From positions 62,001-126,000 of the forward strand of contig JAABRM010000002.1 of assembly GCA_011390955.1 (NCBI GenBank): a stretch of 64,000 nucleotides of DNA. The letters run 5' to 3'. Below, in pieces: positions 16,768 through 62,750 of this stretch (positions are counted from its first letter, which is position 1; every line of letters begins with the position of its first letter). The position numbers were made by a program, and so were the translations under genes. The DNA is from Oscillatoriales cyanobacterium (GTDB lineage: Bacteria > Cyanobacteriota > Cyanobacteriia > Cyanobacteriales > Laspinemataceae). The notes below the pieces were generated by a model. That model did no database searches. It saw only the letters and a program-made list of their open reading frames with translations, and had not been told where the DNA came from.

Positions 16768-19700
16768 TTACTGCTGTTTATAGGCACTTAATGCCGCAGC
16801 TTTCACCGCGTCCGGGACAATGGGAAAAGTATTCAGAATATGCTGAAATTCCGTTTCGGTGAGTTGATAAAGATGGGCAATCATGCCATCAAGTTCCGCC
16901 CGCAGTTTTGCCCGTTCCGCTGCATCAGTAACACCATATTGCACATTCCCCCCTTTTGAAGGGGGGTTAGGGGGGATCAAACCCACTTCTGCCGCTAAAT
17001 CATCAAATTCTGGAGTAGTGCAAATCAGTTTTGCTGCCCGTTCCACAATTTCCTTAAAATAAGGGTCTCCTTCCGTGAGTCGGGGGACGGGTGTTTGATA
17101 AATAAAAAACATTGTTAAATTAGCAGAAACTTGCTGCCGCAATGAGAAATCAAAGCAAAAACTATTTAGTAAAGTAGAAATAAAAATAGTATATTTATTT
17201 TCAAAATTTGATATTCCAACATTCAAAGAGTGACCGCAAACTACATTTTTAGGAATTACAGAACTTATGACAGTTCGAGAATCTGTACTTCTTGCAATAG
17301 ATCGATAAGCAAAACGATATGTTTGATAATCTAGGATTTGCCCTCGATCGGTTTCACCCCGCTTTAATAATGCTTGTCTTGCTTCTTTTTCATCCACCCA
17401 ATATCTCGGTTCAGCAAACTGATGAGTAAACTGATGAATCATTTTCCCTTCATAAAGTGGCAACCGACCTGGTTTGGGTTCCGTTTTAAACAGATGACTA
17501 TCATTAGTCATGTGAAACTCTGCGGTTAATTTCAGATTCCACTTATCGGGAATTTGTGCGCCCAACAGTGGAAAACGAGTCATTTTTTCAGCAATTTGAA
17601 TATCTAACGGATTCTGAAACTCCATCACTGAAATAGAATCCGGTGATAGTTTACGAATTAGGTCAACAGTAATTGATAAAGTTTCATCATCAGGAAATTG
17701 CCGTAATTCTTGGACATCATGGCGCATAAATTTAGCTGGAAATGCCTGAGTTTGACCATTTTTTTCAAAACTCAGGACAACAAACTTAAACCGACTATCA
17801 ACTCCCTCAAATATTGCCTTGCGATTCTCAAAACAGAATAATCCGGTGACTTTTGTTTGAGAAAACAACATTTCTCTTAACTGCTTGCTGCCTAAATCTG
17901 TATAAATTCCACTGGGAATCACCATCCCACATTGCCCACGGGGATGCAGCAAATTAAAACATTGTTCCACAAATAGCTTATACAGATTAATATCCGTTCC
18001 TTGCTTTTTGCCATTCACCACAGAAATTTGATTTTTGTACTGTTCCGTTGACCGATAATATTGACTCACATGGGGAAATTCACTCTGATATTTTAGCCAA
18101 GCTGCCTTTATTTCATCGTCTTGTAATAACTCTTTTTGGGCTTTCTCAAAAGCCTTAATATCCATCTTTTTCTTACTAATCAAATCGCTATATTCGGCAA
18201 AAAACTCCTTAGCATTGGGCTTGAACACTTCCCAGGGTGGATTAGCAATAATCACATCAAAGCCGCCTTTTTCCTGAAGAATTTTATCGAAGTGATAACC
18301 CCAGTGAAACGGCTTTAACGGTTCCATATCGGCAATGGCTAAAACTCGCTTTTTACCCTTGCCCTTTAACTGGGCTGCTTCATACTTAATTTTCAAATCT
18401 TTGAACTCATCTAACAATATCAAATTCAGGGTTTTAGCGGCGTCAGCTTTCTTTTCTTCGATTTCATCCTTAAGTTTCTGGAGATCATCATAGTAACTCT
18501 CGGTATAACGATAAGTATCAATTAACCGATTTTTTTCGTTTAAAATTTCTTGATAAGTTTTACGAAATAAATCTTGCTGAATATGATGACCATTATAGTC
18601 TTCATTATCAACCTGCATCAAACCAATCAAAGAATTCCCCGCCATAATATTAAAATCAATATTCGGCAACGGTTCCAACTCTGCCACGGACTGCGCGGAA
18701 GAAACCAACGCCAAAAATAACCGTAACTTGGCAATTTCTGTGGCTTCTTCCATAAGATCCACCCCATAGAGATTATGGGTGATAATCCGCTTTTTGATAA
18801 AATAACTTAACGACGGATGCTGCTTTTCCGTTTCCTTTAACCACTGCTTTAACTCGCGGCTACCTTTTAGCTGAATTGTGCCAATTACTGCACTATAAAT
18901 CCCGATCAGGGTCTTCATTGCTGCCACCAAAAACGCCCCCGACCCACAAGCGGGATCTAATATCGATAACTGGGGCAATATTTCCTGAAGTAGCAATTGA
19001 CAAAGGTGGCTATCTAAATTTAGCAATAGGTGATTAATATCTTTAAATAAACAACGGTCATTATAGGCATTCACCCGATCCAAAATCCACTGATAAATCG
19101 TCTTTTCACATAAATATTCGGTAATCTCCGGGCGGGTATAATACGCCCCATAAGCTTTCTGGTTAATATATTTTTCAAAAATATAACCCAATACATCTGG
19201 GTTAATCTCATCATCCCGTCCCCCTGGGGTGTCATTCAGGTTCCAAGAATACCGAGAAAATAGGTCTAAAATTTGCTCAAATGCCCCATCCAAAATCTTA
19301 ATTTGAGGATAATCTTGTTCTATTTTATGCTTGAGAAATAATCCCCCATCCAGATATGTCACCTCACCGACTAAGGCTTTCACTTTTTCATCCCGGTCTT
19401 TCTCCGGTTTGGCAAAAGCTTCAAAAAATAGGGTATGTAAAAATTCTCGATAAAATAAGTCTTTGCCCCGCTGCTGACTGGCTTTTAACTGATTTTGCAG
19501 ATAGTCCAAATTGCCGCGATCTAAAAATCCCTTCCGCTGCAAGAAATAGACAAACATCAAGCGGTTTAACATCACCGAAGTGTACCAACGTCGGTCTGCT
19601 TCTTTGTCAATTCCCTGGATATAGCCTAAAAAATTATAGTGTTCTTCCTTAAACTCTTGATAAAATTTCTTGGTGACTCGTTCGATATCAAAGCCAGTTT

Positions 19701-20178
19701 TTAACTTATCGGCAATTTCGATAACTGACGGTTCCCCCAGTTCCCAGTCCGATAACTCAATCACCAGAGAACTTAACTTACTTAAAAATAAATCTCCGGG
19801 CTGCCCCTTAATATATAGATGGTCGCGAATATACCGTTTTGTCCCGTCCCGCTTCACCCAATACCATAAACTCTGACTGCGATCGCGATCGACAAAAATT
19901 AGCAAATTTTCCCGATAAAGCTGTTCAATTTCCTGATAAATTGCCGTTCTCACTTTCCCATCAGGAATTTGCCCATCTCCAGCGGTGACTTCAAACACCA
20001 CCACCCCAGAAACTTGGGCAATCATCAAATAAGCATAACTCTCAGAGGCGATTTCTAAAGTTCGGGGTTTGGTGGTTGCCGGTTGCGACCAGCCTAATTC
20101 TTGAATAAATAGATCGTGAAAGCGAAACTCATTCAGGAAATCGCGGGTTTGGGGGAAAAAGTTCTCATCTAGGGACAT
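16768..20178 (-). CDS. Type IIG-like restriction/adenine-methylase protein
   Basis: 1136 residues. It holds a gamma-type N6-adenine methyltransferase core: motif I DPACGSGAFL near 409 and motif IV NPPWE near 646, preceded by YINQKAYGAYYTRPEITEYL near 340. The C-terminal 300 residues resemble the target-recognition part of Eco57I/TaqI-like enzymes. The N-terminal 190 residues form a separate domain with VVVFEVTAGDG and LLIFVDRDRS; I cannot say whether it is a nuclease. Near the end, PPNPPSKGG is encoded by a dispersed cyanobacterial repeat (about 16946-16980). The upstream helicase gene is in the same orientation, separated by a 460-bp repeat block. The pair is probably a restriction-like defence system. 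Confidence 0.82.
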   Translation of the reverse strand: MSLDENFFPQTRDFLNEFRFHDLFIQELGWSQPATTKPRTLEIASESYAYLMIAQVSGVVVFEVTAGDGQIPDGKVRTAIYQEIEQLYRENLLIFVDRDRSQSLWYWVKRDGTKRYIRDHLYIKGQPGDLFLSKLSSLVIELSDWELGEPSVIEIADKLKTGFDIERVTKKFYQEFKEEHYNFLGYIQGIDKEADRRWYTSVMLNRLMFVYFLQRKGFLDRGNLDYLQNQLKASQQRGKDLFYREFLHTLFFEAFAKPEKDRDEKVKALVGEVTYLDGGLFLKHKIEQDYPQIKILDGAFEQILDLFSRYSWNLNDTPGGRDDEINPDVLGYIFEKYINQKAYGAYYTRPEITEYLCEKTIYQWILDRVNAYNDRCLFKDINHLLLNLDSHLCQLLLQEILPQLSILDPACGSGAFLVAAMKTLIGIYSAVIGTIQLKGSRELKQWLKETEKQHPSLSYFIKKRIITHNLYGVDLMEEATEIAKLRLFLALVSSAQSVAELEPLPNIDFNIMAGNSLIGLMQVDNEDYNGHHIQQDLFRKTYQEILNEKNRLIDTYRYTESYYDDLQKLKDEIEEKKADAAKTLNLILLDEFKDLKIKYEAAQLKGKGKKRVLAIADMEPLKPFHWGYHFDKILQEKGGFDVIIANPPWEVFKPNAKEFFAEYSDLISKKKMDIKAFEKAQKELLQDDEIKAAWLKYQSEFPHVSQYYRSTEQYKNQISVVNGKKQGTDINLYKLFVEQCFNLLHPRGQCGMVIPSGIYTDLGSKQLREMLFSQTKVTGLFCFENRKAIFEGVDSRFKFVVLSFEKNGQTQAFPAKFMRHDVQELRQFPDDETLSITVDLIRKLSPDSISVMEFQNPLDIQIAEKMTRFPLLGAQIPDKWNLKLTAEFHMTNDSHLFKTEPKPGRLPLYEGKMIHQFTHQFAEPRYWVDEKEARQALLKRGETDRGQILDYQTYRFAYRSIARSTDSRTVISSVIPKNVVCGHSLNVGISNFENKYTIFISTLLNSFCFDFSLRQQVSANLTMFFIYQTPVPRLTEGDPYFKEIVERAAKLICTTPEFDDLAAEVGLIPPNPPSKGGNVQYGVTDAAERAKLRAELDGMIAHLYQLTETEFQHILNTFPIVPDAVKAAALSAYKQQ

Positions 20179-20642
20179 GATTTATTGCTTGAATTGGGGT
20201 TATATTTTTGATTATACTATAATATAGCATATAATATTATAACATAATATTATAGTTATCGTAGTTATCGTAGGGTGTGTTAGGCGGCACAATTTAACAA
20301 ATTTAACTCAAAACGTGATTAACCCCGCCGCCGTAACGCACCATTTTGTCGATTGTTCGGTGCGTTACGGCGCTGAATTAAGGTTAATTGTTTGAGGCAA
20401 AAATTACTCCAGCGCCTAACACACCCTACTTTTCGGTTTTTCGGTTATAAAAAATATTGTTCGGTGCGTTACGGCGCTGAATTAAAGTTAACTATTTTAG
20501 GCCAAAATAACTCCAGCGCCTAACACACCCTACTTTTCGGTTTTTCGGTTATAAAAAATATTGTTCGGTGCGTTACGGCGCTGAATTAAAGTTAACTATT
20601 TTAGGCCAAAATTACTCCAGCGCCTAACACACCCTACGGGGA
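20179..20642. repeat. Four family A repeats between methylase and helicase genes
   Basis: An AT-rich linker (20210-20252) is followed by family A copies at 20270-20342, 20359-20429, 20463-20533 and 20567-20637. The last two, with the spacer TTTTCGGTTTTTCGGTTATAA, form a near-identical direct tandem repeat of about 104 bp, indicating recent duplication. Confidence 0.92.
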
Positions 20643-23600
20643 CTATTTCATCGGTGTAAATAATCCCAGGGAACAGATAATTTGCGAGGACTGAAATGTG
20701 GCATCTTGGTTAATTAAACAGAGGCGATCGTCTAAATAAAGGGAAACAACTAATTCGGCAAATTCGCGATCGCCTATGCCAATTCTCAGGCAACGGTTTA
20801 AGCGTTCGATCGCCGATTGTCGCAAGGGATGGTTATAAATCAAATTAATCGCCTTATGCAAATCTTCCGTAACAAATAATGTCCCTTTCCATTCCTGCAT
20901 ATACCGCTTTAAGCGTTCATAAGTGCGAAATCTCACCCCAGAGGGACGCCCCAATTGACCGCCCAGAGTTTTCTCTTCTTCTTCAATTAAATCAGCCCCT
21001 TTTTGGACTAATTCGTGATGTTCGGGTTGGTGAGGAATTGCCGGGGTTTCTGGGTGACAAGCGGCGGCCCGTAAAATAGCTAATTGAGATTTAGTGACGC
21101 TATTTCCTGGCAAATCAATCCAAGCGAGAGAATCATTTCCTTCCGCAGTTCGCATATATAACATCACCCCTTCAGGATGGGTCACTGTACCTTCATGGGG
21201 GCGGGTGGAAAAGACCACATTGGGCAAAGTTTCGATTTTTTGCTGTAAAGATGGATCGGTATCAATGGCATTTTTCCAAATTTGATAAGCCTCAGAAGTT
21301 AAATCCACTTCTCCATCTTCCTCTTCCTCGAAAATGTCGGATTTTTCGTGATATAAATCCACCATCATATCCCGTCCCATATCTTCCTCAAAAAATGCCT
21401 CATCGGTGCCCACTACTTCGGCATTTTCTTGCAGCCGTTGCCGCAAGCGACTCCGCAAGCGAATAATCTTTTCTAAACCTTCTGCGGGTAAGAAAGAATA
21501 GCAGAGAATTTTTTCCGCAGTTTGCCCAATGCGATCGACCCGACCGGCCCGTTGAATCAGGCGAATAATTGCCCAAGGCAAGTCATAATTGACAATAATT
21601 GCGGCATCTTGTAAGTTTAAACCTTCACTCAAAACATCCGTAGCAATTAATATCCGCAATTCTGCCTCTGGGGGAATGGATTGATGATTGCTGCGAGGAC
21701 TAAATTGCCCCGCAATTTTTGCCGGATCGCTGGATTTGCCGGTGACGCTTCCCACCTGTAGAATACCCCGCTTTTCTAATTGCTTTGCCAGATAGGCAAC
21801 CGTATCCGCAAATTGCGTAAAAATTAATATTTTTTCTTGGGGATGGTCTGCACAAATCAGCTTTAATAAGGCATTTAACTTTTCGTCTTCCTTGGGTATC
21901 CATTGGCCAAAATTTTGCCGTAACCCGATTAAAGCTAAACCATCCGATCGCAAATCTTTTTTTAAGTCCGTTTTAAATAACTGGGGCCGCAGCCATTTAA
22001 ACCGTCGGGAGTAACGGCTTTCATAAATTTGATAGACTTGGGCAGCGCGATCGCGATATTGTTTTTCCAGGGATTTAAGATTATTTGTATCCAGAGAATT
22101 CGCTAAATTATTCCCTAAATTAGCCGCTGGATCTAACTCATTATCTACATCATTATCTACATCATTATCTAACTCATTATCTACATCATTATCTAAGTCA
22201 TTACCTAAGTCATCATCAAGGTCTGTGTCAGAGTCCAACAAAGTAGCATCCAGAGTCCCAATGGGCAAGGGTAAATTTTGGGCGATCGCATATAAAAAGA
22301 TATAGTTGCGTAAAATATGGCGATCGATGGACTGAAGAAAAGCGGGGCCACTACTTTCTAACCGCTTAAATAAATTAGTCCGACAAAAACCCATTAACTG
22401 CTTCTTCCCAGACCGAGAAATATTCTTAAGTTGCTGCAACTCTTCGGGACTAGCTAACTTGATCTTAGCTGGTTCGGAAACCTGATAACCCGCTAATCCA
22501 TATCGGGGCAAATTCAGCCGATTTAATAATGTCACCACCTCCTCAGAATACAACAAACCATAGCGATCGCTTTCTCCCCCAAAGCTAAACTTAATTGTCC
22601 GGGGTTGCCGGAGGGGAAAATAAGACCGGGAACCATCGGCAAATTCCAGATATCTTCGCCCAATATCGTCAATTTTAGCATAATTTTTTTGAATAAAACT
22701 GCGAGTTCGGCGTAACAGATACAGTCGCATCAACTCTTGCCAATCATCCGCATATTCGCTTTGTTCAAATGCTGCCAAAGACTGGATCGGAACTTGGTGT
22801 TTTTGCCGAAACTCGACTTCCCCACCCATTTCTTTTAATAACCGCTTCGGACTAATGCCCAAAGGCCGATCTTCGGGGATAAATAAGCGCAATTGATTGG
22901 ACAAATCCAAACAAGTCTTATTATAAGGAGTTGCCGTAAGTAAAATACAGCGACTTTCGTTTAACTCAATATATTCTTGAATTGCCTGATAGCGTTTTCC
23001 CTGGCGATTTCGCAGGTTATGACTTTCATCAATAATTACTAACTGATAGCGGCGTAATTCTGGCAAAGTCTGCTGTACCATACTCACAGAAACTACCTTA
23101 CCATATAACCGATATTCATCCACATAACCTTGCCACATAGAAACCAAGTTTTTCGGGCAAATAATCAAGGTTTCTAATAATAAATCTTCCTGCAAAATGC
23201 GGGCGATCGCTGTTGCCATTAAAGTCTTGCCCAAACCCACCACATCACCTAACATCACTCCCCCGCGACGGGTGACATGACGGGCGGCAATTTTTACGGC
23301 AATTTTCTGATATTCAAACAACTGCCGATCCAATTCACGAGGAATTTTAAATTCCGCCAATCCTGACCGGGCTTCTTGAGATAAATGATAGGCCATTTTC
23401 AAATAGATATAATAAGGCGAAATCAGAGTTTCTCGCGCCCAACTTTGGTCGATAATCTGCATAATTTCAGCGGAAATATCCACACACCAGCGTTCTTGCC
23501 AGCGATCGTTAAACCATTTTTGCAACTTCTCACAAGCATCATGGTCTAACACATCAATATTTAACTCTCCCTGCTTTTGTAACCCCGAAAGGGTGAGATT

Positions 23601-24086
23601 ACTACTGCCCAAAAACCCCGTAATCGGATTATTGCGATCGGTTCGATGTAGCAAATAAAGTTTCGCATGAAGGGGATATGCTAAAAATAGCTTAACTTGC
23701 AGTTTTTTATCTTGAATTTGGCGCCGTAGTTGCTGCAAAGCCCGTTCATCTTGATTAGAGGGGGCGCCCCAAGTGAGTTGCTGACAAAACTCTTGGGCAA
23801 CTTCTTTTTTTAAGATATTGACTAATCGATTATCCATCCCTTCGGGAGTTTTATAGCCAAATTCTAAAGATTTTTTCAACACATCTTGGGGTGACTTTTG
23901 CATTCCGATTAATAGGCGACAACAAGCCCCATCACCTCCGGCAAACTGGGCAATTAGGTCATCAATTTTTTGCCATCCCCGCAAATTAAAATAACCGACA
24001 CAAAAGTCAGCACTTTTTGACTGTTTGAGGGTATCTCTGAGGATATCCAGAAATTCTAGTTCTATGTTATCAAAAATTCTGGGCAT
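20643..24086 (-). CDS. PLD-nuclease and SNF2-type helicase fusion
   Basis: 1147 residues. N-terminal phospholipase-D-type nuclease half: HAK at 140-142 with GSSN near 160-163 (an HKD-like motif). Helicase: Walker A GLGKT at 284-288, DESH at 353-356, ILLTATPYNK, and C-terminal LSEGLNLQDA with QRAGRVDRIGQ. An acidic insert of Asp/Asn-Leu/Val units (about 625-650), encoded by a 12-bp minisatellite (22135-22215), separates the helicase lobes. Such helicases occur next to methylases in restriction-like and DISARM-related defence loci; here the methylase is the next gene. Because there is one HKD, a dimer may be needed for cleavage. The exact defence type is not assigned. Confidence 0.85.
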   Translation of the reverse strand: MPRIFDNIELEFLDILRDTLKQSKSADFCVGYFNLRGWQKIDDLIAQFAGGDGACCRLLIGMQKSPQDVLKKSLEFGYKTPEGMDNRLVNILKKEVAQEFCQQLTWGAPSNQDERALQQLRRQIQDKKLQVKLFLAYPLHAKLYLLHRTDRNNPITGFLGSSNLTLSGLQKQGELNIDVLDHDACEKLQKWFNDRWQERWCVDISAEIMQIIDQSWARETLISPYYIYLKMAYHLSQEARSGLAEFKIPRELDRQLFEYQKIAVKIAARHVTRRGGVMLGDVVGLGKTLMATAIARILQEDLLLETLIICPKNLVSMWQGYVDEYRLYGKVVSVSMVQQTLPELRRYQLVIIDESHNLRNRQGKRYQAIQEYIELNESRCILLTATPYNKTCLDLSNQLRLFIPEDRPLGISPKRLLKEMGGEVEFRQKHQVPIQSLAAFEQSEYADDWQELMRLYLLRRTRSFIQKNYAKIDDIGRRYLEFADGSRSYFPLRQPRTIKFSFGGESDRYGLLYSEEVVTLLNRLNLPRYGLAGYQVSEPAKIKLASPEELQQLKNISRSGKKQLMGFCRTNLFKRLESSGPAFLQSIDRHILRNYIFLYAIAQNLPLPIGTLDATLLDSDTDLDDDLGNDLDNDVDNELDNDVDNDVDNELDPAANLGNNLANSLDTNNLKSLEKQYRDRAAQVYQIYESRYSRRFKWLRPQLFKTDLKKDLRSDGLALIGLRQNFGQWIPKEDEKLNALLKLICADHPQEKILIFTQFADTVAYLAKQLEKRGILQVGSVTGKSSDPAKIAGQFSPRSNHQSIPPEAELRILIATDVLSEGLNLQDAAIIVNYDLPWAIIRLIQRAGRVDRIGQTAEKILCYSFLPAEGLEKIIRLRSRLRQRLQENAEVVGTDEAFFEEDMGRDMMVDLYHEKSDIFEEEEDGEVDLTSEAYQIWKNAIDTDPSLQQKIETLPNVVFSTRPHEGTVTHPEGVMLYMRTAEGNDSLAWIDLPGNSVTKSQLAILRAAACHPETPAIPHQPEHHELVQKGADLIEEEEKTLGGQLGRPSGVRFRTYERLKRYMQEWKGTLFVTEDLHKAINLIYNHPLRQSAIERLNRCLRIGIGDREFAELVVSLYLDDRLCLINQDATFQSSQIICSLGLFTPMK
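22135..22215. repeat. 12-bp minisatellite in the helicase gene
   Basis: Units of the form TCATTATCTACA and variants repeat about six times in frame and give DNDV/DNEL tetrapeptides on the minus strand. It is placed in the linker between helicase lobes. Confidence 0.88.
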
Positions 24087-26196: not shown

Positions 26197-29100
26197 TTAC
26201 TGGTGAACATTTGCTTTAGCCAAGGTTAAAGCTTGATAAGCAGCATCAAAGTCAAAGGAATCGATCCCATCAGCGATCGCCTGATAATGGTCAGGAAAGG
26301 CATTTTTCAGTAAGTCGCCATAATCCTGTAAAATTTCGGCGGCATCCGCATCATTTTCGCTTAACAATTCCCCTAAGCGATCGCTAATTTTGCTTACTTT
26401 ATCCCAGTCAATTGTGACTGGGGAGGAAACGGTTTCTGGGGGCAATTTAACTTCCAGAATATGAATTAACTTTTCCAGAGGACAACGCACGGCGATTAAC
26501 AGTGAATCGATTTCCATACTGGAACCTCCATCTTTAACCGCCTTTTCTAAAGCGGAGGATGCGGCTTGGATTTCTTCAGCCCCAATATTGCCCGCTACCC
26601 CACGCAATGTATGGGCCAATCTTTCTGCTAATTTATAGTCACCAACTTCCCAAGCTTGAATAAATTGTTGGGTAAAGTTTTTTTGTCCCGATATAAACTT
26701 GCGTAACATAGACAGATAAAGGGATTTTTTCCCCAGAACCCGACGCAAACCTTCGCATACATTCAGACCCGGAATATCTGTAGGAATGGCGATCGCATCT
26801 TCGGGGGGGGCGATCGCCGGGACAGGAGTTTTTGCTAATTTCTTCGTGGAAGGCTGGGGTTTAATCCATGTTAATAAAGTATTCCAGAGTTCATCGGGTT
26901 CAATAGGTTTAGCCACATGATCGTTCATCCCCGCAGCTAAACAGCGATCGCGATCGCCTTGCATTACATTCGCAGTCATGGCCACAATAGGCAAAGCTTG
27001 GTAATGAGAATCTTGGCGAATCTGAACCGTAGCTTCAACCCCATCCATTTCGGGCATTTGCATATCCATTAACACCAAATCGTAATCATCAGCCCGGACT
27101 TTTTCCACCGCAACGCGCCCATTTTCGGCCAAATCAACCGCAAATCCGGCATCTTGTAACAACTCTATTGCCACTTCTTGATTCACTTCATTATCTTCAA
27201 CCAAAAGAATCTTTGCCCCTTGAATTTCTTTGAGGCGATCGACCAGCAAACTAGGAGTTTCATAAACCGGACTATTGCCCTGGTGGGATGAGGGATCGCC
27301 CAGTAATCTGGCCAGACTATCAAACACAATGGAAGCATTTACTGGCTTGACCAAAACATCAGCAATCCCGCTGGATTCTGCCTCTTTAAATACTTCCTCT
27401 CGTCCGTAAGCGGTGACGATTAAATGATGCGGTTTATGCTTCAAAGGAGTTTTTTTGATGCGGCGGGCTACTTCCAACCCGTCCATCCAGGGCATTTGCC
27501 AATCCAGAAACACAATTTCATAAAAGCGATCGGAGGCATCTGCCGCCGCGACTGCATCCAAAGCTGCCTGACCGGAACTCGCCAGATCCACATCAAATTT
27601 CATCTGTTCCAGGAGATCCTTCATCACCAATCGGGCATTTTCATTGTCATCAACCACGAGGACTCGTTTGCCTTGAATATCTCGACTCAGTACCATTCGC
27701 CGTGGGGGTAAGGTACTCTTTTGCAAACAAACCGTGCTCCAGAAAGTGCTACCTTTTCCGTATTCACTTTCCACCCCCACTTCGCCCCCCATGAGTCCCG
27801 CAATTCGCTTACAGATGGCCAGCCCTAAGCCGGTGCCACCAAACTTCCGGGTGGTGGAAGTATCTGCCTGTTGGAAACTGTTGAACAAGGCGGTCATTTG
27901 CTCCTCGGTCAAGCCAATCCCGGTATCTTTGACGGCCAAATACAGCACCACATCGCGATCGCGGTATTCTTTCAGCTTAACAATGATGGTGATTTCCCCT
28001 TTTTCCGTAAACTTAACCGCATTATTGGCATAATTAATCAGAATTTGCCCCAAACGTAGGGGATCGCCGATAAAATTTCGGGGCAAATTTTGCTCAATAT
28101 CAAATAGCAATTCTAGACCCTTGCCGGTGGCTTTTTCCGTAATCAAAGTGGCCACATTTTCTAATACTTTTTCCAAATCAAAATCGATCTGTTCAATCTT
28201 CAATTTCCCCGCTTCAATCTTGGAAAAATCGAGAATATCATTAATCACTCCTAATAAATGTTGACTAGATGTCTGGATTTTTTTGACATATTCCCGCTGA
28301 CGGGAATTCAAATCAGTTTTAAGGGCGAGATGGGTCATGCCGATAATGGCATTCATGGGAGTACGAATTTCATGGCTCATATTCGCCAGAAAATCAGATT
28401 TAATGCGGGTGGTTTCCTCCGCCAATTCTTTCGCCCGTCGCATTTCTGCTTCAGCGGCTTTAATTTTACTGATATCCGTTAACCAACCTAAAACACCGGG
28501 CTTGCCTTCATATTCCGTGGCGACAAAAGTGGCCATAATATCCCGAATTTCTCCATCGGAACCATACATTTTATAAGTACCGCCTTCAAGTACGCCATAA
28601 CTGGCTAGTTGTTCCAGCATATAAAGGCGATCGAATTTATCCACATAGATTTTTTCTGGGCTGTCGCCAATTTTGAGATCGACCAGGGAGGCAATGCAGG
28701 GGTTAGCAAAACGAGTGACGCCATCTACAGAGATGGCAACGCCCGCTGGTGCTTTATCCAGAATCCACTGCAATTGTTCCCGCTGGCGGATAATTGCCGA
28801 TTCCGTCTGCTTGCGGGCGGTGACATCGCGCACTGAGGCAAAGACACTGATGCCACGATCCCCCAGTTCCGGCAACCGGGCTAATCCCACTTCGATGGGA
28901 AACCGGGAACCATCTTTACGCTGACCCTGTAACTCCAAATTGCGATCGCCAACCAGACAAGCGGGATTTTTGGCGACTAAGTGATGATAAAAGTCAACCT
29001 GCTGGGAAAAAGCATCCCCTAGTCCCAGGACTCCCCAGCATTGACCAATCAGTTCGTCTCTCTCGTAACCGAACATCCCATCAAGAACCGGGTTAGTCAG

Positions 29101-30018
29101 AATAATCTCGCCCTGGGAGTCAATTACCAACACCCCATCGGGGGCATATTCAATAATCCCACGATACCAGGCTTCTGTATCTGCCAGGGCTTTGCTTTGA
29201 TTCCGTTGCCAAGTAGTTTCCCGCAGTACCAACAACATGATGATACCCGTCAGTAAGGTGCTTGCCAGGGTGACACCAATGGCGATCGCCTGGATTTGCA
29301 GCCCAGAACCAACAACACTGCTGAGGGGATTACCGAAAAACCGAGTGGATGTCATGGCGATGTAGTGCATCCCGGATGTAGCCAGACCCATGACTACCGC
29401 TGAACTGGCTAGGGCATAGCGTCCCGCGCCGGAAAATATGTTGCTGATATAAAACCGAAACCAAAGGGCGATCGCCGCCAAAGCGATCGCCACCAGAATT
29501 GACAGGGAAAACAGCACGGGATCGTAGCGAATCCAACCATCTAACTGGATCGCGGCCATCCCTGAATAGTGCATCGTCCCAATCCCTAGCCCCACAAATA
29601 CCCCCCCAGCGAGTAAAACGGGGAAACTGGGTTGGGGGCGGGCGATGAAATGCATAGTATAGATGCTGGCCCCTACACTGGGAAGCACCGATATCGCCGT
29701 GATCCAAGGGTTATAGCTGGTGCTACAGGAAAGGTGAAATCCCAGCATCCCAATGAAGTGCATCGCCCAGATGCCCACCCCCAAAGCCAATCCACTCAGG
29801 GAAAGAAGTGTATCGCGAACCTGCTTACTGGCAACTTGCTCGGCAAACTGACCCATTAAAAATGCCATATATGAAGTAAAAATGGCGATCGCGATCGACA
29901 GAATTACCAAAAAAGGCTGATACTCCCCGTGATGGACAATATGGCTGGCGGATACTTGGTTCATTAAATGGAAATAATTACTCAACATTGCTGTTAAACC
30001 CACAGAAAAAATTGCCAA
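26197..30018 (-). CDS. MHYT-PAS hybrid histidine kinase with two receivers and HPt
   Basis: 1273 residues. Seven-helix MHYT sensor at about 35-265 with the motifs [23 protein letters not shown] and GMHYIAM, proposed in this family to bind copper and sense O2, CO or NO. Two PAS domains follow (about 285-400 and 410-530). HisKA has His near 548 ([11 protein letters not shown]), with HATPase_c GTGLGLAIC. Two receivers follow ([11 protein letters not shown] and [11 protein letters not shown]), then an HPt with [12 protein letters not shown] near 1136. It carries a full phosphorelay in one chain. An alternative start is the internal ATG eleven codons in. It lies upstream of the response regulator-kinase in one operon. 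Confidence 0.93.
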
Positions 30019-30794: not shown

Positions 30795-31982
30795 ATGAGT
30801 AAAGTCAAGATTCTCAATGTATCATTGGACAATTTTTCTAAAATTGAACTTTTAGAAAAACTCAAGGAAGGTGGGTTTGTCATTACTCCGAATGTAGATC
30901 ACTTAATGAAGCTACAAAAAGATCCAGATTTTTATCACGTTTATCAAGCAGCCGATTATCGAGTTTGCGATAGCAAAATTTTAATGTATGCGGCGAAAAT
31001 TTTGGGGAATCCATTTAAAGAAAAATTATCAGGATCGGATTTTTTTCCGGCTTTTTATGAATATTATAAGCATGATGAATATGTCACAATTTTTCTCTTA
31101 GGTGCGGCGGCAGGAGTTGCCCAACAAGCCCAGCAAAATATTAATCAACGGGTGGGCAGAAACATGGTAGTCGGGGCTTATTCTCCCTCTTTTGGGTTTG
31201 AAAAGAATGAGCCGGAATGTGACTATATTATTGATTTAATTAATCGATCGGGAGCGACAGTTTTAGGCATTGGGGTCGGCGCCCCTAAACAAGAAAAGTG
31301 GATTGCTAAGTATAAGCATCGACTAAATAATATTAAAGTGTTTCTGGCCATTGGCGCTACGATTGATTTTGAAGCGGGTTATCGGGCGCGATCGCCAAAA
31401 TGGATGAGTGAACTGGGCATAGAATGGCTGCATCGCCTGATGTCGGAACCGCAACGTTTGGCCAAACGTTACCTAATTGAAGATATGCCATTTTTCTGGC
31501 TATTGTTCCAGCAAAAACTTAATCGTTACAATTACAAAGTTCCCCTAGGAGTGCATTTGAGACAAGCAGGATTAATCTCTAATGCACAATTAGAACTGAT
31601 TTTAGAACAGCAACGGAAACACCCAAACTTGCGGTTTGGAGAGATTTTGACGATGCATGGGTGGCTGAAGCCGGAAACTGTTGATTTCTTTGCGGAACAA
31701 TTTCCTGAATTGTCCCGAATGAGCCCACAACCCTTGGGTCAATATCTCAAAGCTGCTGCTTTGTTAGATGATTTACAAATCAGCCGAATTTTAGAAGAAC
31801 AAAATCAAGTAAATTTACGCTTTGGGGAATTGGCGGTTCAAAAAGGATGGGTGAAACAGGAAACTATCGACTTATTCCTTTCATCCTTAAATGCCGCACC
31901 AAAATCTCCACCATCAGTGAGCCTTAGCGACCAAGATTCCATTGGGCTGAATCCTGCCCAAAAAACGGTGAAATTATCGTAA
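30795..31982 (+). CDS. WecG/TagA/CpsF glycosyltransferase with two MshEN-like modules
   Basis: 395 residues. The first 245 are the WecG/TagA/CpsF fold: TPNVDHLMKL (31-40), GIGVGAPKQEKWI (158-170), RARSPKWMSELGIEWLHRL. It transfers an aminosugar-type residue to a lipid-linked saccharide at the membrane face. The last 150 residues hold two repeats shaped like the MshEN c-di-GMP-binding motif: 249-302 (PLGVHLRQAGLIS, a five-residue spacer RKHPN, then RFGEILTMHGWLK) and 312-365 (PLGQYLKAAALLD, then RFGELAVQKGWVK). The known motif starts Arg-Leu-Gly; here it is Pro-Leu-Gly or Arg-Phe-Gly. AGGAG lies at 30786-30790. A Wzc-like gene follows. Confidence 0.85.
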   Translation: MSKVKILNVSLDNFSKIELLEKLKEGGFVITPNVDHLMKLQKDPDFYHVYQAADYRVCDSKILMYAAKILGNPFKEKLSGSDFFPAFYEYYKHDEYVTIFLLGAAAGVAQQAQQNINQRVGRNMVVGAYSPSFGFEKNEPECDYIIDLINRSGATVLGIGVGAPKQEKWIAKYKHRLNNIKVFLAIGATIDFEAGYRARSPKWMSELGIEWLHRLMSEPQRLAKRYLIEDMPFFWLLFQQKLNRYNYKVPLGVHLRQAGLISNAQLELILEQQRKHPNLRFGEILTMHGWLKPETVDFFAEQFPELSRMSPQPLGQYLKAAALLDDLQISRILEEQNQVNLRFGELAVQKGWVKQETIDLFLSSLNAAPKSPPSVSLSDQDSIGLNPAQKTVKLS

Positions 31983-32359
31983 TTTCTTACCATAAAGGAT
32001 CTGGATTGCCGTGGAGTGTTGATGACAATGATCGACACTCCTTTTTTTAGGGTGAAGCGTCTGAACAAAAAAGCGATCGGCTTCTAGGTAGAATGGGAGG
32101 TAATACCAGTGTGAATTGTCAAAAAAACAAAGGCGATCGCGTAAATCAAGCCCAGAATCAAGCCCAGAATCAAGCCCAGGCAAGGTGTTGATTCGGGGAC
32201 GATCCAGCACTTTTTTCTTCAAAACCCCAGGAAGATGCGCGATCGAGTGGTCAAAAGACTAAAAGCTTACAATAATATTATCTAGATCAAAATGCCCAGA
32301 TATGGGATCTGGTTTTTATCTAGTGCTTATCGCAATGGCTGACCCACGCAGAGGTGACA
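31983..32359. other. Intergenic region with a 12-bp direct repeat
   Basis: CAAGCCCAGAAT repeats about three and a half times at 32139-32180. The antisense open frame across it (LDSG units) lacks a plausible start region and I reject it as a gene. AACAAAAAAGCGATCGGC and other HIP1 sites occur. The tyrosine-kinase promoter should be in the last 150 bases. Confidence 0.55.
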
Positions 32360-34708
32360 ATGGAAGCAAAACAATACACGGACAACCAAATCGAACCAGC
32401 ACAGGATTTTGAGCAACTGTCACCGATTCAGCCGGTAGCGCCGCAGTTGCCGCCATCATTGCCATATATAGACGATGAGGTGGATCCGGAGAACGCACCC
32501 AAGCCGAAAAAAGCCAACATCATCCCCCCACTAATCAGAATTTTACTAAGAAAAGGGTGGCTAGGTCTGATTCCCGCCATCTTACTTGGTGGGCTGGCAT
32601 TCAAGTTCGTTCCCTCACCCCCTCTGGGATTCAGAGGTTCTTTTCGGTTATTAGTGGAACCCTTGACTTCTGAAGGCGCTAGATCTGAACCCGGTGCTTT
32701 AGCGGGAACTAATAGAATTGCCGGAGCCCCTGGGTTAGATTATGTGACTCAGCTACAAATTTTACAAAGTCCTCAGATATTAGACGCAATTCTGAAACAA
32801 GTTCAAACTAAGTACCCAGATTTTCAAAAATTTCAACTTAGACAAGGGATGGTAGTTCAGCAGGTTGTTGTGGGTAGGAATGCGAGAGATGGGGCGACAA
32901 AATTAATCGAAGTCGTATATCAAGATACACAATTGCCTACGGAAGGCCAGAAAAAAACCCAAGAAAGAGTTTTATTTGTTTTAGATGCTATTGCTGATAA
33001 ATACTTACAATATAGCTTAGATGAACGCCGCAGTCGCATTAGTGAAGGGGTGAAGTTTATTGACGAACAACTTCCCGGATTAGAGGAAGAAATGAATCGG
33101 ATTCAAAACCAAATCCAAGAACTTCAGCAAAAATATAATTTGACGGATTTGAGTGTTTTAGCCTCTGAGTTAGCGGGTCAAAGAAGCACTTTAAATGGTC
33201 AACTGTTTGAAGTGAATCAGTTACTCGCGGAACAAAGAACCCTCTATCTAAGCTTAAAACAATCCCTGGGAATCACCACCAACAATGAAGCCGTAGAAGA
33301 GTTTACACTGATCCAAAGAACTCGCTATCAAGACCTGTTGGTACGGTTACAAGCTGTAGAAACTCAGATTGCCACGGAGTTAGTGCGCTTTAAAGAGGAG
33401 AACCCGGTGATTTCTGTGCTCAGGGAGGAGCAACAAAATATTTTAGCCGCCCTGAGAGCGGAAGCACAGACCGCCTTGGGCGAAAAGCTCACAGGGGCAG
33501 AAAGTAATCCACAGTTGCTGGGGTTGCCGAATCAGGTTCGGCAGGGTCGAATTGTTCAGATAGTGGATACGTTAACTCAAATTGATATCTTGGAAGTCCG
33601 TAAACGGGTCTTAGAACAAGAACAACTTATTTTACAACAAAGAACTCGTGACTTTCCCGAAATTTCTCGTCGATATAATCAATTACAAAATAAGTTACAA
33701 ATTACGAATCAAACCTTTTATCAACTGTTGGAAAATCGCCAGAAACTATTAGTTGAGGCAGCCCAAAAAGAAGTGCCTTGGCAGGTAGTTTCTCAACCAG
33801 ATTTACCTCGTTTTCCTGATGGTTCGGTGATTCCGATTTATGGAGAATCTCGAAAAAAACTCTTGCTGATGGCAATAATCGCCGGTCTAGGATTAGGTTT
33901 GGGGGTGGTTTTGCTGATCGATATCGCCCGGAATATCTTTTTTACCCCTCAAGATATCGACGATCTGGTTCCATTTCCCCTGTTGGGAATTATTCCCCGC
34001 GATCGCGGCGTCACAAAATTGGCCATGTCTTCAGAAGATACCAGTTCTTTATCCTTGACCAATTCGGGCGCCGCATCGGATACCAATCAACCCGTGGGGG
34101 GCTATTCTGACAATCCTGAGTTCTTGGAAGCCTTTAGTTTGCTATTTGCGAAACTGCGGTTTCTTGCGGCGGATTTTCCCATCCGTTCTTTGACCATTGC
34201 ATCCGCGCAAGTGGGGGATGGTAAGTCTACCATTGCTTTACATTTGGCGCAAACTGCTGCCCTGATGGGCCAACGAGTATTATTAGTCGATGCGAATTTA
34301 CGCCGACCAGCCCTGCACCTTATGTTAGATATTCCTAACTTCAAAGGACTGAGCGATCTGTTGATCGATAAATTGCCACCCAAAGAGATGATTTCGCGAT
34401 CGCCTCTAGCGGATAACTTATTTGTGCTGACTGCCGGTGCGCCCACCCCGGTTGCCCCCAAATTACTGGCATCTCCGCAAATGCGTTATTTAATGGAAGA
34501 ATTAGAATCAATGTTTGACTTGGTAATCTATGACACTGCTCACCTGCTGGAGTTAGTAGATACGAATTTTCTGGCTGAACATACCGATGGCATTTTAATG
34601 GTAGTGGCGGTGAAGAAAACTAAACTCTCTGCGGTGAACCAAGTCATCAATGACCTGAAGAATTTTAATTTATCGGTTTTAGGGACTATTGCCAACGATC
34701 TCAGATAA
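32360..34708 (+). CDS. Wzc-like chain-length regulator and BY-kinase
   Basis: 782 residues from ATG 32360 (GAGGT at 32351; a GTG two codons earlier is also open). A Pro-rich cytoplasmic start is followed by membrane helix 1 (LIPAILLGGLAFKFV, about 75-90), a large periplasmic Wzz-type region with coiled coils (220-450), helix 2 (LLLMAIIAGLGLGLGVVLL, about 505-525) and a BY-kinase: Walker A QVGDGKSTIA, Walker A' VLLVDANLRRP, Walker B LVIYDTAH. The protein ends LGTIANDLR with no C-terminal tyrosine cluster, so it cannot autophosphorylate at the usual tail. It controls polymerisation or export of exopolysaccharide, in keeping with the upstream glycosyltransferase. Confidence 0.9.
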   Translation: MEAKQYTDNQIEPAQDFEQLSPIQPVAPQLPPSLPYIDDEVDPENAPKPKKANIIPPLIRILLRKGWLGLIPAILLGGLAFKFVPSPPLGFRGSFRLLVEPLTSEGARSEPGALAGTNRIAGAPGLDYVTQLQILQSPQILDAILKQVQTKYPDFQKFQLRQGMVVQQVVVGRNARDGATKLIEVVYQDTQLPTEGQKKTQERVLFVLDAIADKYLQYSLDERRSRISEGVKFIDEQLPGLEEEMNRIQNQIQELQQKYNLTDLSVLASELAGQRSTLNGQLFEVNQLLAEQRTLYLSLKQSLGITTNNEAVEEFTLIQRTRYQDLLVRLQAVETQIATELVRFKEENPVISVLREEQQNILAALRAEAQTALGEKLTGAESNPQLLGLPNQVRQGRIVQIVDTLTQIDILEVRKRVLEQEQLILQQRTRDFPEISRRYNQLQNKLQITNQTFYQLLENRQKLLVEAAQKEVPWQVVSQPDLPRFPDGSVIPIYGESRKKLLLMAIIAGLGLGLGVVLLIDIARNIFFTPQDIDDLVPFPLLGIIPRDRGVTKLAMSSEDTSSLSLTNSGAASDTNQPVGGYSDNPEFLEAFSLLFAKLRFLAADFPIRSLTIASAQVGDGKSTIALHLAQTAALMGQRVLLVDANLRRPALHLMLDIPNFKGLSDLLIDKLPPKEMISRSPLADNLFVLTAGAPTPVAPKLLASPQMRYLMEELESMFDLVIYDTAHLLELVDTNFLAEHTDGILMVVAVKKTKLSAVNQVINDLKNFNLSVLGTIANDLR

Positions 34709-39213: not shown

Positions 39214-40647
39214 TTAGAAACCTGGTTCCTGGGAAAAACCGGGCTTCTGGGTTAAATACTGCCTCAAGACTGGGCACAAAGTATAAACATTGTCTATTTT
39301 TTCAATTAAACCACGTCGCAATAGAGATTGCAGCGCATTCAATAAATCTAACCCTTCTATAGGGGAATTTTCCAGCAATTTTGCCAAATTAACTGCTGCC
39401 CTTTCCTTTGCCAGCAAAAATAACGCTTGTTTTTCGATTGTCGATAGGCGATTAAATTGTTGATCTAATATCTCTTTTAAATCTTCCGGCAATAAGATAG
39501 TATCATCGGGCAATAAATCGGTGACGGATTCCCCCAACTCCTGAATCTGTAGGGCGACACTTTGTAACCATAAAGGATTGCCTTGATAATGGGAAATTAG
39601 GGCGGAGTAGTTTTCGATTTCTGGTAATCCGTAATCTCTCAGGATTTCTTGTGTAGCCGCAATATCTAAGCCAGTGAGTTGTAAGGAAAAAATAGCATTT
39701 TTTGGCTGAGGGACTTTCGGGAGTGCCACTGCGGGTTCCCAACCGATTAACAATAAGCAACTTTGATGGGATAGTTGTTCGATTTGTTTAAAAAATGAGC
39801 GATATTCTTCATAACCGGGTTGATATTTTCCGGCAAATTCACCGCTGCTGAAAAGGTGGTGAAAGTCATCTAAGACCACTAAGCAGCGATATTTTTGTAA
39901 ATACTTAATCAGCGATAAGCTTTTGCCGTTATTCAGAGGGTAATTGAGAGGGGTATCTAGTTGTTCTGACTGGGAGAAAAACTGAATTAAGTTATCTTGA
40001 AATTCAGCAAAAGTCGGGGATAGTTCTAAGCTGTACCATAAAACATATTCAAATTCATCTTTGATTTGGTGAACCAGTTGCACCGCTAAAGTAGTTTTGC
40101 CAATGCCGCTGATACCCGTAATTGTCGCCAGGTGACAACGTTGTTGTAAAATCCAGTTTTTCAGGGTTTCCAGTTCGGGAGTGCGACTGTAAAAAGCCCC
40201 TAACTCTGGCATTTCGCTTAAGTCTTGATGTGGGGTTTGAGAGGGTTTTGAGTTAGATGTTTCAGGATGATTCGGTTGTGGTGAATTTGGGATATCTGGG
40301 GGATGTCTCGCCGATCCACAGGTGTTAAAACTATCACTAACTACACCACTCACTACAAAATCTTGTGCAAAGCTTAAAATATTAGAGTTTTGCCACCTCT
40401 CCATAGTCGATAAAAAGTTCGATTTATTCACTTCTTCCCCTAACTCTTCTGAAAGTATTTGCCATAACTTTGCCCCCGTATTCCTGATACTACTTTCAGA
40501 ACAATCAAAATCTTTAGCAATTTCTTTGTATCCCTTCCGTTGCAGAGTCCCTTGCAATATCGCTGCTTGTAAATCGTCGAGGTGCTGCCCTGTTTTGGTA
40601 AAGACTATCTCATCCGCGAGATTTAACATTTCTTTAAGATTTCTCAT
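39214..40647 (-). CDS. STAND/NB-ARC ATPase with vMAP-type N-terminal HTH
   Basis: 477 residues from the ATG at 40647 (MRNLKEMLNLADEIVFTKTG); the frame runs 23 codons further. The N-terminal 85 residues are a helix-turn-helix (LQRKGYKEIAKDFDCSESSI) common at the start of cyanobacterial STAND proteins. A Pro/Ser-rich linker follows, then an NB-ARC NTPase with Walker A GISGIGKTTLA (about 178-188), Walker B CLVVLDDFHHLF and LIGWEP, and a winged-helix region. There are no WD40 or TPR sensor repeats at the end, which is unusual. The C-terminal TQKPGFSQEPGF is encoded by a copy of the AGAAACC repeat, so the sensor part may have been lost. Possible role in signalling or defence. Confidence 0.8.
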   Translation of the reverse strand: MRNLKEMLNLADEIVFTKTGQHLDDLQAAILQGTLQRKGYKEIAKDFDCSESSIRNTGAKLWQILSEELGEEVNKSNFLSTMERWQNSNILSFAQDFVVSGVVSDSFNTCGSARHPPDIPNSPQPNHPETSNSKPSQTPHQDLSEMPELGAFYSRTPELETLKNWILQQRCHLATITGISGIGKTTLAVQLVHQIKDEFEYVLWYSLELSPTFAEFQDNLIQFFSQSEQLDTPLNYPLNNGKSLSLIKYLQKYRCLVVLDDFHHLFSSGEFAGKYQPGYEEYRSFFKQIEQLSHQSCLLLIGWEPAVALPKVPQPKNAIFSLQLTGLDIAATQEILRDYGLPEIENYSALISHYQGNPLWLQSVALQIQELGESVTDLLPDDTILLPEDLKEILDQQFNRLSTIEKQALFLLAKERAAVNLAKLLENSPIEGLDLLNALQSLLRRGLIEKIDNVYTLCPVLRQYLTQKPGFSQEPGF

Positions 40648-40716
40648 GGCTAGGGATCGGGGAGAGTTTTGTGTACTATAGCACAGTTTGAGACTTTTTT
40701 GTACATTTTTAGACAT

Positions 40717-58238: not shown

Positions 58239-58259
58239 TTTTCTTATACCTCGGCTCAT

Positions 58260-61900: not shown

Positions 61901-62750
61901 CAGATCCACCCATCTCGTACTCAATGGTGGTCATCCATTGTTGCTTGGTGACAAAACGGATTGCTTGTTCATACTGACTAGCCACTGGGGATGGCAATAA
62001 TTCTTGGATTTTTTGTTGACCAATTGCCGTGGGGGAAATGTGGACATTGCAACGCTGTTCTCCTCGATAGTCTAAAATCGTGCCATCAGTACCAAGGAGT
62101 AAAAATAAGTCGGGAAATGCTTGAAAAATTCCTTCAAATTCAGCATTTTTTTCCTGAAGTTTTGTATGCAAATTTTGACATATAGCCAACTGTTGTGCTG
62201 AATTAGCATCTACACAGGATGTCACACAGGGATATGCTGAAAATACTGAACTTATGGGGCGAACGCGCAGGAGCGTTGCGGATGCAACATCGGGTCGCGT
62301 TACGGATACAACATCGCCGTTAGCTGAGGCAGTAACCCTAGAAGGCAAAAACGATGACTCACCAAGGATAAACGCCCCATCTTTCCCCTTGCCAGTTTGG
62401 GAATTAAGGATCGTCCCCAGGAATGCCACCGCTACAGTACCCATCATCCCTGGTAAAATATTAAACAGCCAGTAGATCGAAGCAGAATCGGGCAAAGGAA
62501 CCAGCAAATTTAACAGCCCAGAAGAGATCGTTAAGAATAGCAACAGCCAAAATATTATCACTGGTGCGATCGTAAATTCAGGGTGAAAACTGCGTAACCA
62601 TTGCCAGAAAATGATGCCGATCGCGAGATAGATTGCAGCGTTACAAGAAGCCAAAACTATTGACAAGCAAACCCTAGGCATTTCTGGAATCGTACTCCCT
62701 AGAGCGATCGATAGTTTTTGCGTCCATATCATACTGAATAAATTTAACAT
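58992..62750 (-). CDS. PAS-GAF-PAS-GGDEF-EAL c-di-GMP protein
   Basis: 1252 residues. Three or four membrane helices (about 30-50, 58-85, 90-110), then PAS domains (about 205-310 and 325-445), a GAF domain (about 460-600), a coiled coil, another PAS (about 655-780), GGDEF with RLGGDEF near 867 and inhibitory site RKTD, and EAL (about 975-1235). The EAL triplet reads EIL; Asn in NLSGASF, Glu in EVTET, DDFGSG and KIDG are kept, so phosphodiesterase activity is plausible. Both halves look competent, so the net direction is unknown. The start of the soluble part includes repeated VTRPDVASATLLRVRP-like sequence of dispersed-repeat character. Confidence 0.93.
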   Translation of the reverse strand: MLNLFSMIWTQKLSIALGSTIPEMPRVCLSIVLASCNAAIYLAIGIIFWQWLRSFHPEFTIAPVIIFWLLLFLTISSGLLNLLVPLPDSASIYWLFNILPGMMGTVAVAFLGTILNSQTGKGKDGAFILGESSFLPSRVTASANGDVVSVTRPDVASATLLRVRPISSVFSAYPCVTSCVDANSAQQLAICQNLHTKLQEKNAEFEGIFQAFPDLFLLLGTDGTILDYRGEQRCNVHISPTAIGQQKIQELLPSPVASQYEQAIRFVTKQQWMTTIEYEMGGSAGEQTLEARLIPFGNQKIMMFIRNTTDKKQAESALCQSYKELSDIKYALDQSAIVAATDLKGKITYVNDKFCDISGYSREELIGQNHRILKSDEHSREFFRTLWSTIAQGKIWRGEIRNKTKDGDDYWVDTTIVPLLDRQGKPFEYLSIRTDVSDRKQAEKAMGQQQKRLSILHQIDRAILEAEEPEAIAEVTVKHLRPLLPCERVSVIEFNLKTGEAIMLAIDADRESCILAGNRLPLMNQDGFANPDKLTNGVLVVEDLWELPNLTFVQESLKAEGLRSCVCIPLKSRNLLLGSLNIWSDRPGGFCDRQIAIAQEVADSLAIAIQQARLRTTVQSYAQELEQRVADRTAELLEVNEKLRQEIDRRQEIEEQLYHEKEVAQVTLNSIGDAVITTDLNGIIQSLNPQAETLTGWRQSEAQGQPLKRVLQLFNAVTGDPVENFLDRSNTSRLSAFSHHTLIRNRDSEEFMVEPSVAFIRMSSGEIIGMVVICRDVTENRKLAAQLCWEASHDPLTNLINRREFKRRLSELMEEKAKTESEHSLCYLDLDQFKIVNDTCGHAAGDELLRQVTGLLQSQIRKTDLLARLGGDEFALLLYECPLKQARQVAEDLRQVVQDFRFVWQDKTFSIGVSIGLVKLDPIVTSLADVMSAADSAMYAAKDAGRNRIHVYQVNDRELAQRQGDMQWVSRLVKALEEDRFCLYSQAIAPAQPDSGKPDHCEILIRMTDENGALIPPGMFIPAAERYNLMPKIDRWVIRNLFSYLATHLHHSSCGNKIVPETLLPHQAKTVSPGSIYTVNLSGASFNDEQFLSFLQEQFAYYQIPPPMICFEVTETFAISNLNKAIQFIHALKQLGCSFALDDFGSGMSSLTYLKNLPVDYVKIDGYFVRNILEDPVNAAMIEAINKLTHAIGLQTIAEFVENEQILHKLQELGVDYVQGYGIAKPTPLGGNLINMPIAKQKPKISRQIQAG

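Follow-up and report, generated by a model that had tools for sequence, protein, structure and literature searches.

The window, by which we mean the whole stretch of 64,000 nucleotides analysed here from an assembly of 7.1 Mb, contains a gene for a GT26 glycosyltransferase in which two MshEN-fold units (residues ~250–303 and ~313–365) follow the enzyme domain. The features of the gene and of its 3' neighbourhood are collected in Table 1.

Table 1. Features of the glycosyltransferase gene and its 3' neighbourhood, in window positions.
Feature	Position	Strand	Evidence
Whole gene (single 395-aa ORF) for a GT26 glycosyltransferase with a tandem of MshEN-fold units at its C-terminus	30795..31982	+	ORF, Pfam, NCBIfam
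GT26 (WecG/TagA/CpsF) domain, residues 1–245	30795..31529	+	PF03808, TagA alignment, fold match, residue counts
GT26 C-terminal appendage, ~residues 196–245, immediately 5' of MshEN unit 1	31380..31529	+	TagA alignment, helices in the model, role as described in PMC6493773; exact limits presumptive
Unit 1 motif I, P250–Q273: Arg1 replaced by Pro; Gly3, Gly10, Leu17, Leu21, Gln24 retained	31542..31613	+	motif alignment
Unit 1 motif II, R280–F303: Arg1, Gly3, Gly10 retained; position 21 Ala, position 24 Phe	31632..31703	+	motif alignment
Unit 2 motif I, P313–Q336: Arg1 replaced by Pro, Gly10 by Ala; Gln24 retained	31731..31802	+	motif alignment
Unit 2 motif II, R342–L365: Arg1, Gly3, Gly10, Leu21 retained; position 24 Leu	31818..31889	+	motif alignment
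Probably disordered low-confidence tail, residues 370–395	31902..31979	+	pLDDT <50 in the full-length model
Terminator-like hairpin in the gap before wzc, 11 pairs followed by seven T	32013..32041	+	consensus match only
Wzc-like polysaccharide copolymerase/kinase	32354..34708	+	AAA_31 match; adjacency in L040, L011, L012

The Wzc-like ORF, a neighbour that the original prediction had named correctly, starts 371 bases 3' of the glycosyltransferase gene. No Wzz domain was detected in it by Pfam at E 0.001. The terminator-like hairpin between the two genes weakens the idea of a glycosyltransferase-wzc operon. A Wzc-like tblastn match was obtained in 7 of 31 loci, the window included, where many of the flanks covered only about 1.5 kb. 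Such sequence lies near the gene in the same genus (L040, L011 and L012) and near fused GT26 genes in L021, L120 and L122; in L120 a Bac_transf gene is found on the opposite side of the fused gene.

A GGDEF protein (55794–58259) and a GGDEF-EAL protein (58992–62750) are encoded on the opposite strand, ~24 and ~27 kb from the gene. They had been cited earlier as context for c-di-GMP control. Both are indeed present, but the genome holds 38 GGDEF matches, some of them partial, and together with the distance and the other strand this number makes the two genes weak context; as evidence for cognate partners they were rejected. The same 38 matches indicate that the genome can make c-di-GMP.

Elsewhere in the window, an MHYT-PAS-histidine kinase-receiver-Hpt hybrid (26197–30018) is divergent from the glycosyltransferase gene, neighbouring large Eco57I-type methylase and PLD/SNF2-helicase proteins (16768–24086) look like a restriction/defence pair, and a 500-aa NB-ARC (STAND-type) ATPase is encoded at 39214–40716.

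The GT26 domain and the fold of the tail

PF03808 (GT26) matched the protein with 181.5 bits (Pfam cut-off 27.4) and TIGR00696 with 106.1 bits (NCBIfam cut-off 69), and GT26 was the sole glycosyltransferase domain detected by Pfam. By sequence alignment the nearest solved structures were TagA/TarA (7mpk, E 1.1e-32), and the fold of the GT domain was matched to TagA (7n41) with a TM of 0.90 of the target. T31, D59, R214 and R221 aligned with T37, D65, R214 and R221 of TagA; the catalytic Asp and Thr and the appendage Arg of TagA (D65, T37 and R221) are accordingly all represented, by D59, T31 and R221. Among the fused proteins of our tree set D59, R214 and R221 were found in 33 of 33. The equivalent of T31 was present in 26 of 33, the window protein included, and replaced in the remaining 7. 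A complete WecG/TagA/CpsF domain over residues 1–245, as first proposed, is therefore borne out by the Pfam score, the TagA fold and the catalytic residues.

TagA is described as inactive in its soluble dimeric form and active at the membrane, where the appendage folds and supplies Arg221 (PMC6493773). The window protein shares with TagA/TarA (GT26; PDB 7n41, 7mpk and 5wb4) the GT fold, the catalytic residues and the arginines of the C-terminal appendage. The TagA/TarA sequence ends after the appendage and lacks MshEN, whereas the window protein continues into the tandem units. In the full-length model (pLDDT 89.1, pTM 0.75) the appendage helices were followed by eight more helices, and a structure search with this model returned only TagA/TarA matches below E 0.001. 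The nearest named relative found, from the cyanobacterium Planktothricoides sp. SR001, was 84% identical over the entire protein. Within the window genome the GT part gave 4 matches, and the module was covered in the window gene only; a tail-less paralogue (G000:C3:28341-29078) was 65% identical over residues 1–246.

An HMM search of the tail against MshEN had been put forward as a check of the assignment, and its outcome was divided. PF05157, the Pfam model of MshEN, gave no match to the window protein at E <= 10, while in the genome search it exceeded its cut-off at three other places. NF053729, the NCBIfam model of an MshE-related c-di-GMP motif (cut-off 38), matched the protein with 73.0 bits in 2 stretches and the tail alone with 78.9 bits. 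In a six-frame search of the genome the single units scored 43.2 bits (E 2.5e-10) and 39.8 bits (E 2.9e-9), so each unit on its own lies above the cut-off and beyond chance. Two results led us to reject the possibility that the tail is an artefact or a chance match: the scores of both units lie over a curated cut-off, and the loci examined contain 51 distinct fused GT26 proteins. DUF4388, with a Pfam match (E 0.02) under the cut-off, was also dismissed as the family of the tail.

Structure prediction of the C-terminal part agreed with this family. The AlphaFold2 model of the tail, built with 31 relatives in the alignment, had a pLDDT of 92.1 and a pTM of 0.83 and comprised eight helices, and the best 5 of 46 PDB matches in Foldseek were MshEN structures (PilF GSPII and MshE domains). 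The match to 5htl superposed with 1.9 A over 57 columns at a probability of 0.97; the Foldseek E-values were all weak (>=0.76), with no match of the tail model below E 0.001. We concluded that the original prediction is right in family and fold, with two repeats of the MshEN form behind the GT26 domain.

The window protein has in common with the MshEN of MshE and the GSPII of PilF (PMC5013675, PMC11731258 and PMC12002112) the fold and the two 24-residue half motifs, and with PilF the presence of several units, one of which is a non-binder in PilF. MshE and PilF are ATPase hosts with Gln24 in both motifs of the binders, whereas the host here is a GT26 enzyme, and the second subdomain described for MshE/PilF has no counterpart in the window protein, where another unit stands instead. 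Another NCBIfam model, that of the EpsG chain-length tyrosine kinase (TIGR03029), matched the tail with 34.4 bits against a cut-off of 313.8. EpsG is a kinase and the window protein a glycosyltransferase; the sub-cut-off match suggests that an EpsG-type polysaccharide protein may carry an MshEN-like stretch.

Residues of the ligand site

The canonical MshEN domain consists of two 24-residue motifs separated by a five-residue spacer. Arg1 makes the stacking contact with guanine, which is also held by the backbone of Gly3 and of the residue after it; Leu triangles are built from positions 2, 17 and 21, and Gln24 contacts ribose and phosphate (PMC5013675). In the window protein the spacers are of six residues (RKHPNL) in unit 1 and five in unit 2. 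The original prediction had read the first spacer as exactly five (RKHPN), the length that belongs to the second; motif II of unit 1 begins at R280, which places Gly at positions 3 and 10 and makes the spacer six. The fused family follows the same pattern, with a first spacer of six in 36 of 51 modules and of five in none of the 51, and a second spacer of five in 47 of 51.

These and the following counts refer to a motif table of 51 modules from 50 proteins. L136 is left out because its match was split and L234 contributes two modules; the second piece of L169 was too weak, and L172 (first unit only) and L160 (partial GT domain) are included.

Position 1 is Pro in both first motifs and Arg in both second motifs (R280 and R342), the glycines at position 3 are kept, and Gln24 is present in motif I and absent from motif II in both units. 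The relaxed motif of Wang et al., used as printed, found no match anywhere in the window protein; when the rule for position 7 was dropped and Leu allowed at position 1, both first halves matched. The replacement of the leading Arg by Pro had been seen correctly and named as the reason for doubt about binding. We consider it the lesser worry beside the loss of the motif-II Gln (F303 and L365), because in PilF GSPII-B other residues at position 1 of motif I bind better than Arg (Lys 6 nM, Leu 2 nM, Arg 150 nM; PMC11731258, a series in which Pro is absent). The search motif of Wang et al. itself allowed Pro at position 1 (PMC5013675). Loss of the glutamines is more costly in PilF: Gln190 to Glu gave 950 nM and Gln218 to Glu 460 nM, a 77- to 158-fold loss, and with both exchanges there was no binding (PMC11731258). 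In PilF GSPII-A, which naturally does not bind, the two Gln are replaced by His and Arg, along with other differences (PMC12002112).

The same division is seen across the family. Gly3 was found in 51, 51, 50 and 49 of the 51 modules in the four motifs, and motif I had its Gln in 48 modules in unit 1 and in 49 in unit 2; from this near-invariance we judge these ligand-contact positions to be held. Position 1 of motif I was Pro in 37 (unit 1) and 39 (unit 2). Of the 51 modules, 49, with the window protein among them, lacked the motif-II Gln of unit 1; the other two, L137 and L138, are gapped in the alignment and have Gln by direct reading. In unit 2 it was present in 11 of 51 and missing in 40 (one row incomplete), the window protein among the latter. 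Mostly hydrophobic residues had taken its place.

A complete unit-2 site, in which neither half deviates at any of the 7 key positions, occurs in L046, L047, L048, L023 and L241, which are Pleurocapsa-type orthologues; the four of these five that were aligned are 55–57% identical to the window protein, and a looser rule gave a complete unit-2 site in 9 of 51 modules. In a third GT26 set (L136, L137 and L138) none of the four motifs lacks Gln24, and position 1 is occupied by Lys, Arg or Leu; Gly10 is replaced in most motifs.

From one remaining phosphate- and ribose-binding Gln per unit, and from the effect of Gln losses in PilF, we predict that the orthologues bind well and that the window protein binds weakly or not at all. 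Judged from its residues, whether the window copy binds c-di-GMP at all is about a coin toss, and any binding is expected to be weaker than in MshE. The description "c-di-GMP-gated" is thus possible for the window copy and better supported for the Pleurocapsa-type orthologues and the third GT26 set.

Spread of the fusion and other carriers of the module

Some part of the window protein was matched in 59 of 59 genomes of the relatives search. The tail module was found at E <= 1e-20 in at least 113 of 291 genomes of the order (at least 51 of 121 genera) and at E <= 1e-6 in at least 65 of 194 genomes of the phylum, all lower bounds, since for many genomes the scoring covered a subset of the candidates. 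Many of the 51 distinct fused GT26 proteins in the loci examined are close relatives.

The GT26 tree had 141 rows and included 33 of 34 fused proteins (L160 was left out for its partial GT domain) and 108 of 111 unfused ones (the three left out had a short GT part, came from the same locus or were duplicates). The distribution of the 33 fused rows on this tree requires 9 changes, and well-supported branches force at least 3 of them. A single fused clade was rejected (p-AU 6.75e-43) for a group chosen after the tree had been seen. The AU test thus speaks against one fusion origin, and an ancient gain followed by many losses is still compatible with its result. We compared 9 hand-picked proteins of subfamily A with 3 of subfamily B. 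Between A and B the modules were 51.1% and the GT domains 30.1% identical, and the module was the more similar part in 27 of 27 pairs; within subfamily A the GT domains (64.5%) were more alike than the modules (50.2%), and the module was ahead in 0 of 36 pairs. Modules that resemble each other more than their GT domains do across A and B indicate that the module was gained after the A/B split in at least one of the two subfamilies. For this pair of subfamilies the comparison, with its 9 and 3 picked proteins, disfavours the scenario of an ancient gain and later losses.

Two GT4-type glycosyltransferases (L171 and L159) likewise end in the tandem module, and in L170 it lies N-terminal to a Bac_transf (WbaP-like) domain. 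In one genome, G198 (L170, L171, L172 and L173), it is carried by one GT4, one Bac_transf and two GT26 proteins, of which L172 has the first unit only. The module is not exclusive to polysaccharide enzymes, as TPR, pentapeptide and OmpA proteins carry it too, and so do proteins in which Pfam finds no domain. For the motif comparison these other carriers were represented by 40 modules at >=100 bits, weaker ones being left out. In a module tree of few columns and many open forks, which can be read as a hint only, 36 of 37 rows from other carriers grouped apart from the polysaccharide enzymes.

Several proteins with a different arrangement were met in these searches. An NAD-dependent epimerase/dehydratase of the window genome (L005:1456-2688; G000:C12:59207-59365) ends in a single, more canonical MshEN (53.3 bits) with Lys at position 1 and Gln24 in both motifs, the second Gly10 being Glu; judged by these residues it is a stronger c-di-GMP candidate than the window protein. 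L259 and L278 are GT26-like by eye and carry similar canonical MshEN units. L234:1096-2649 is a 518-aa GT26 protein with two consecutive tandem modules, i.e. four MshEN units, and L255:318-2876 an 853-aa protein with a tandem module and a C-terminal OmpA domain.

Possible roles of the module

Control of a glycosyltransferase by c-di-GMP through MshEN, the central idea of the original prediction, has a proven precedent in NfrB of E. coli, a c-di-GMP-activated exopolysaccharide synthase made of GT2 and a C-terminal MshEN (PMC8669469), but the window copy lacks the motif-II Gln in both units. NfrB and the window protein have a glycosyltransferase, a C-terminal MshEN and a polysaccharide output in common. 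They differ in that NfrB, a GT2, has transmembrane helices and a single MshEN that is reported to be fully conserved (PMC8669469), whereas the window protein is a peripheral-type GT26 with two units, each short of one glutamine. It is no member of the NfrB family of GT2 joined to MshEN, the NCBIfam NfrB model scoring 26.2 bits on the tail against a cut-off of 1170. A c-di-GMP-controlled MshEN glycosyltransferase is thus already known, and the GT26 tandem form with its partial site would be a variant of this kind. The protein cce_1044 is, we presume, cyanobacterial. It served as a search query in PMC5013675, where the fusion of MshEN to glycosyltransferases was already mentioned in 2016. Among titles and the starts of abstracts we found no paper on the GT26-MshEN architecture, although the supplementary tables of PMC5013675 may list such fusions; in PMC13075795 and PMC7690835 the word MshEN appears in the reference list only.

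The reading we favour, at slightly under an even chance, is that of a TagA-type GT26 enzyme whose tandem MshEN-fold units are an allosteric control module descended from a c-di-GMP receptor. The enzyme would transfer a sugar onto a polyprenol-linked intermediate in the synthesis of an extracellular polysaccharide, and by analogy with TagA this could be a committed step of its assembly. A ligand or partner of the module would then shift the appendage switch and favour or hinder the active membrane-bound form. The module starts ~5 residues beyond the appendage, which ends at residue 245, and nine beyond the last modelled helix (232–241), and because it begins within ~10 residues of the appendage end its movement could act on the active form.

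The results support the two types of domain and the MshEN fold, the catalytic residues, a partly kept site and the recurrent joining to polysaccharide enzymes. Regulation, its coupling to the appendage, the sign of the effect and c-di-GMP as the ligand of the window copy are what we infer beyond this, and regulation of polysaccharide assembly by the tail appears likely. Allosteric control is favoured by the NF053729 matches and the MshEN fold, by D59, R214 and R221 in all fused proteins of the tree, by the retained Gly3 and motif-I Gln, by the orthologues with a complete unit-2 site and the third set with Gln24 in all four motifs, by the repeated joining to GT26, GT4 and Bac_transf, by NfrB and by the GGDEF matches of the genome. 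It is disfavoured by the motif-II Gln losses, the Pro in both first halves and the Ala at Gly10 of unit 2, by the third set without Gly10 in most motifs, by the silence of PF05157 and the weak Foldseek E-values, and by the replaced Thr in some fused proteins and the module on TPR, pentapeptide and OmpA proteins.

A rival reading is that of a docking module. Ligand binding would have been lost in most lineages, and the units would hold polysaccharide enzymes together or tether them to a partner such as a Wzc protein or a c-di-GMP-bound relative. The wide loss of the motif-II Gln, mostly to hydrophobic residues, is in line with this, as are the carriers in G198, the TPR proteins with the module, the Wzc-like sequence near the gene in the genus and near fused genes in three other loci, and PilF GSPII-A as a natural non-binding MshEN fold (PMC12002112). 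Pure docking, however, would have no need of the motif-I Gln and Gly3 that are kept almost everywhere, nor does it agree with a complete site in some orthologues, and we regard it as possible but rather doubtful.

The kept positions could alternatively serve a ligand other than c-di-GMP, for example a different cyclic dinucleotide or a single guanine nucleotide in each unit, bound by the motif-I half-sites. Each unit does have one intact half-site, with Gly3, hydrophobic residues at 17 and 21 and Gln24 in motif I and a hydrophobic position 2 in motif II, and the MshEN of V. cholerae binds cGAMP weakly (PMC5013675). Binding by a single half-site is, however, not reported in the literature consulted, and this reading seems improbable to us. 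Still less probable, and in our view very unlikely, is a tail without regulatory role, a stabilising or neutral extension. The tail-less paralogue indicates that such an enzyme manages without it; against a neutral extension stand modules that are still ~50% identical across a deep divergence, their nearly invariant glycines and glutamines, and a gain that took place more than once.

The module may have a wider history, which we propose tentatively and at somewhat less than even confidence. A mobile cyanobacterial tandem module derived from MshEN, with canonical receptor ancestry as seen in the Pleurocapsa-type orthologues, would have been joined separately to GT26 (in at least two subfamilies), to GT4 and to the initiating Bac_transf. 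In most lineages examined, the window protein's among them, it would now have one Gln per unit and either sense c-di-GMP with altered affinity or mode, or dock the enzymes of a pathway into one complex. The more interesting outcome of this study is that the module recurs on several polysaccharide enzymes.

The PilZ protein Tll0007 was called the first validated cyanobacterial c-di-GMP receptor in 2018, with a Kd of ~64 uM (PMC5871770). In our judgement the action of c-di-GMP on cyanobacterial surface polysaccharide is poorly known at the level of the receptor. A module fused to the assembling enzymes themselves provides concrete receptor candidates, and the natural variants with and without a complete site allow the question of binding to be addressed by direct comparison.
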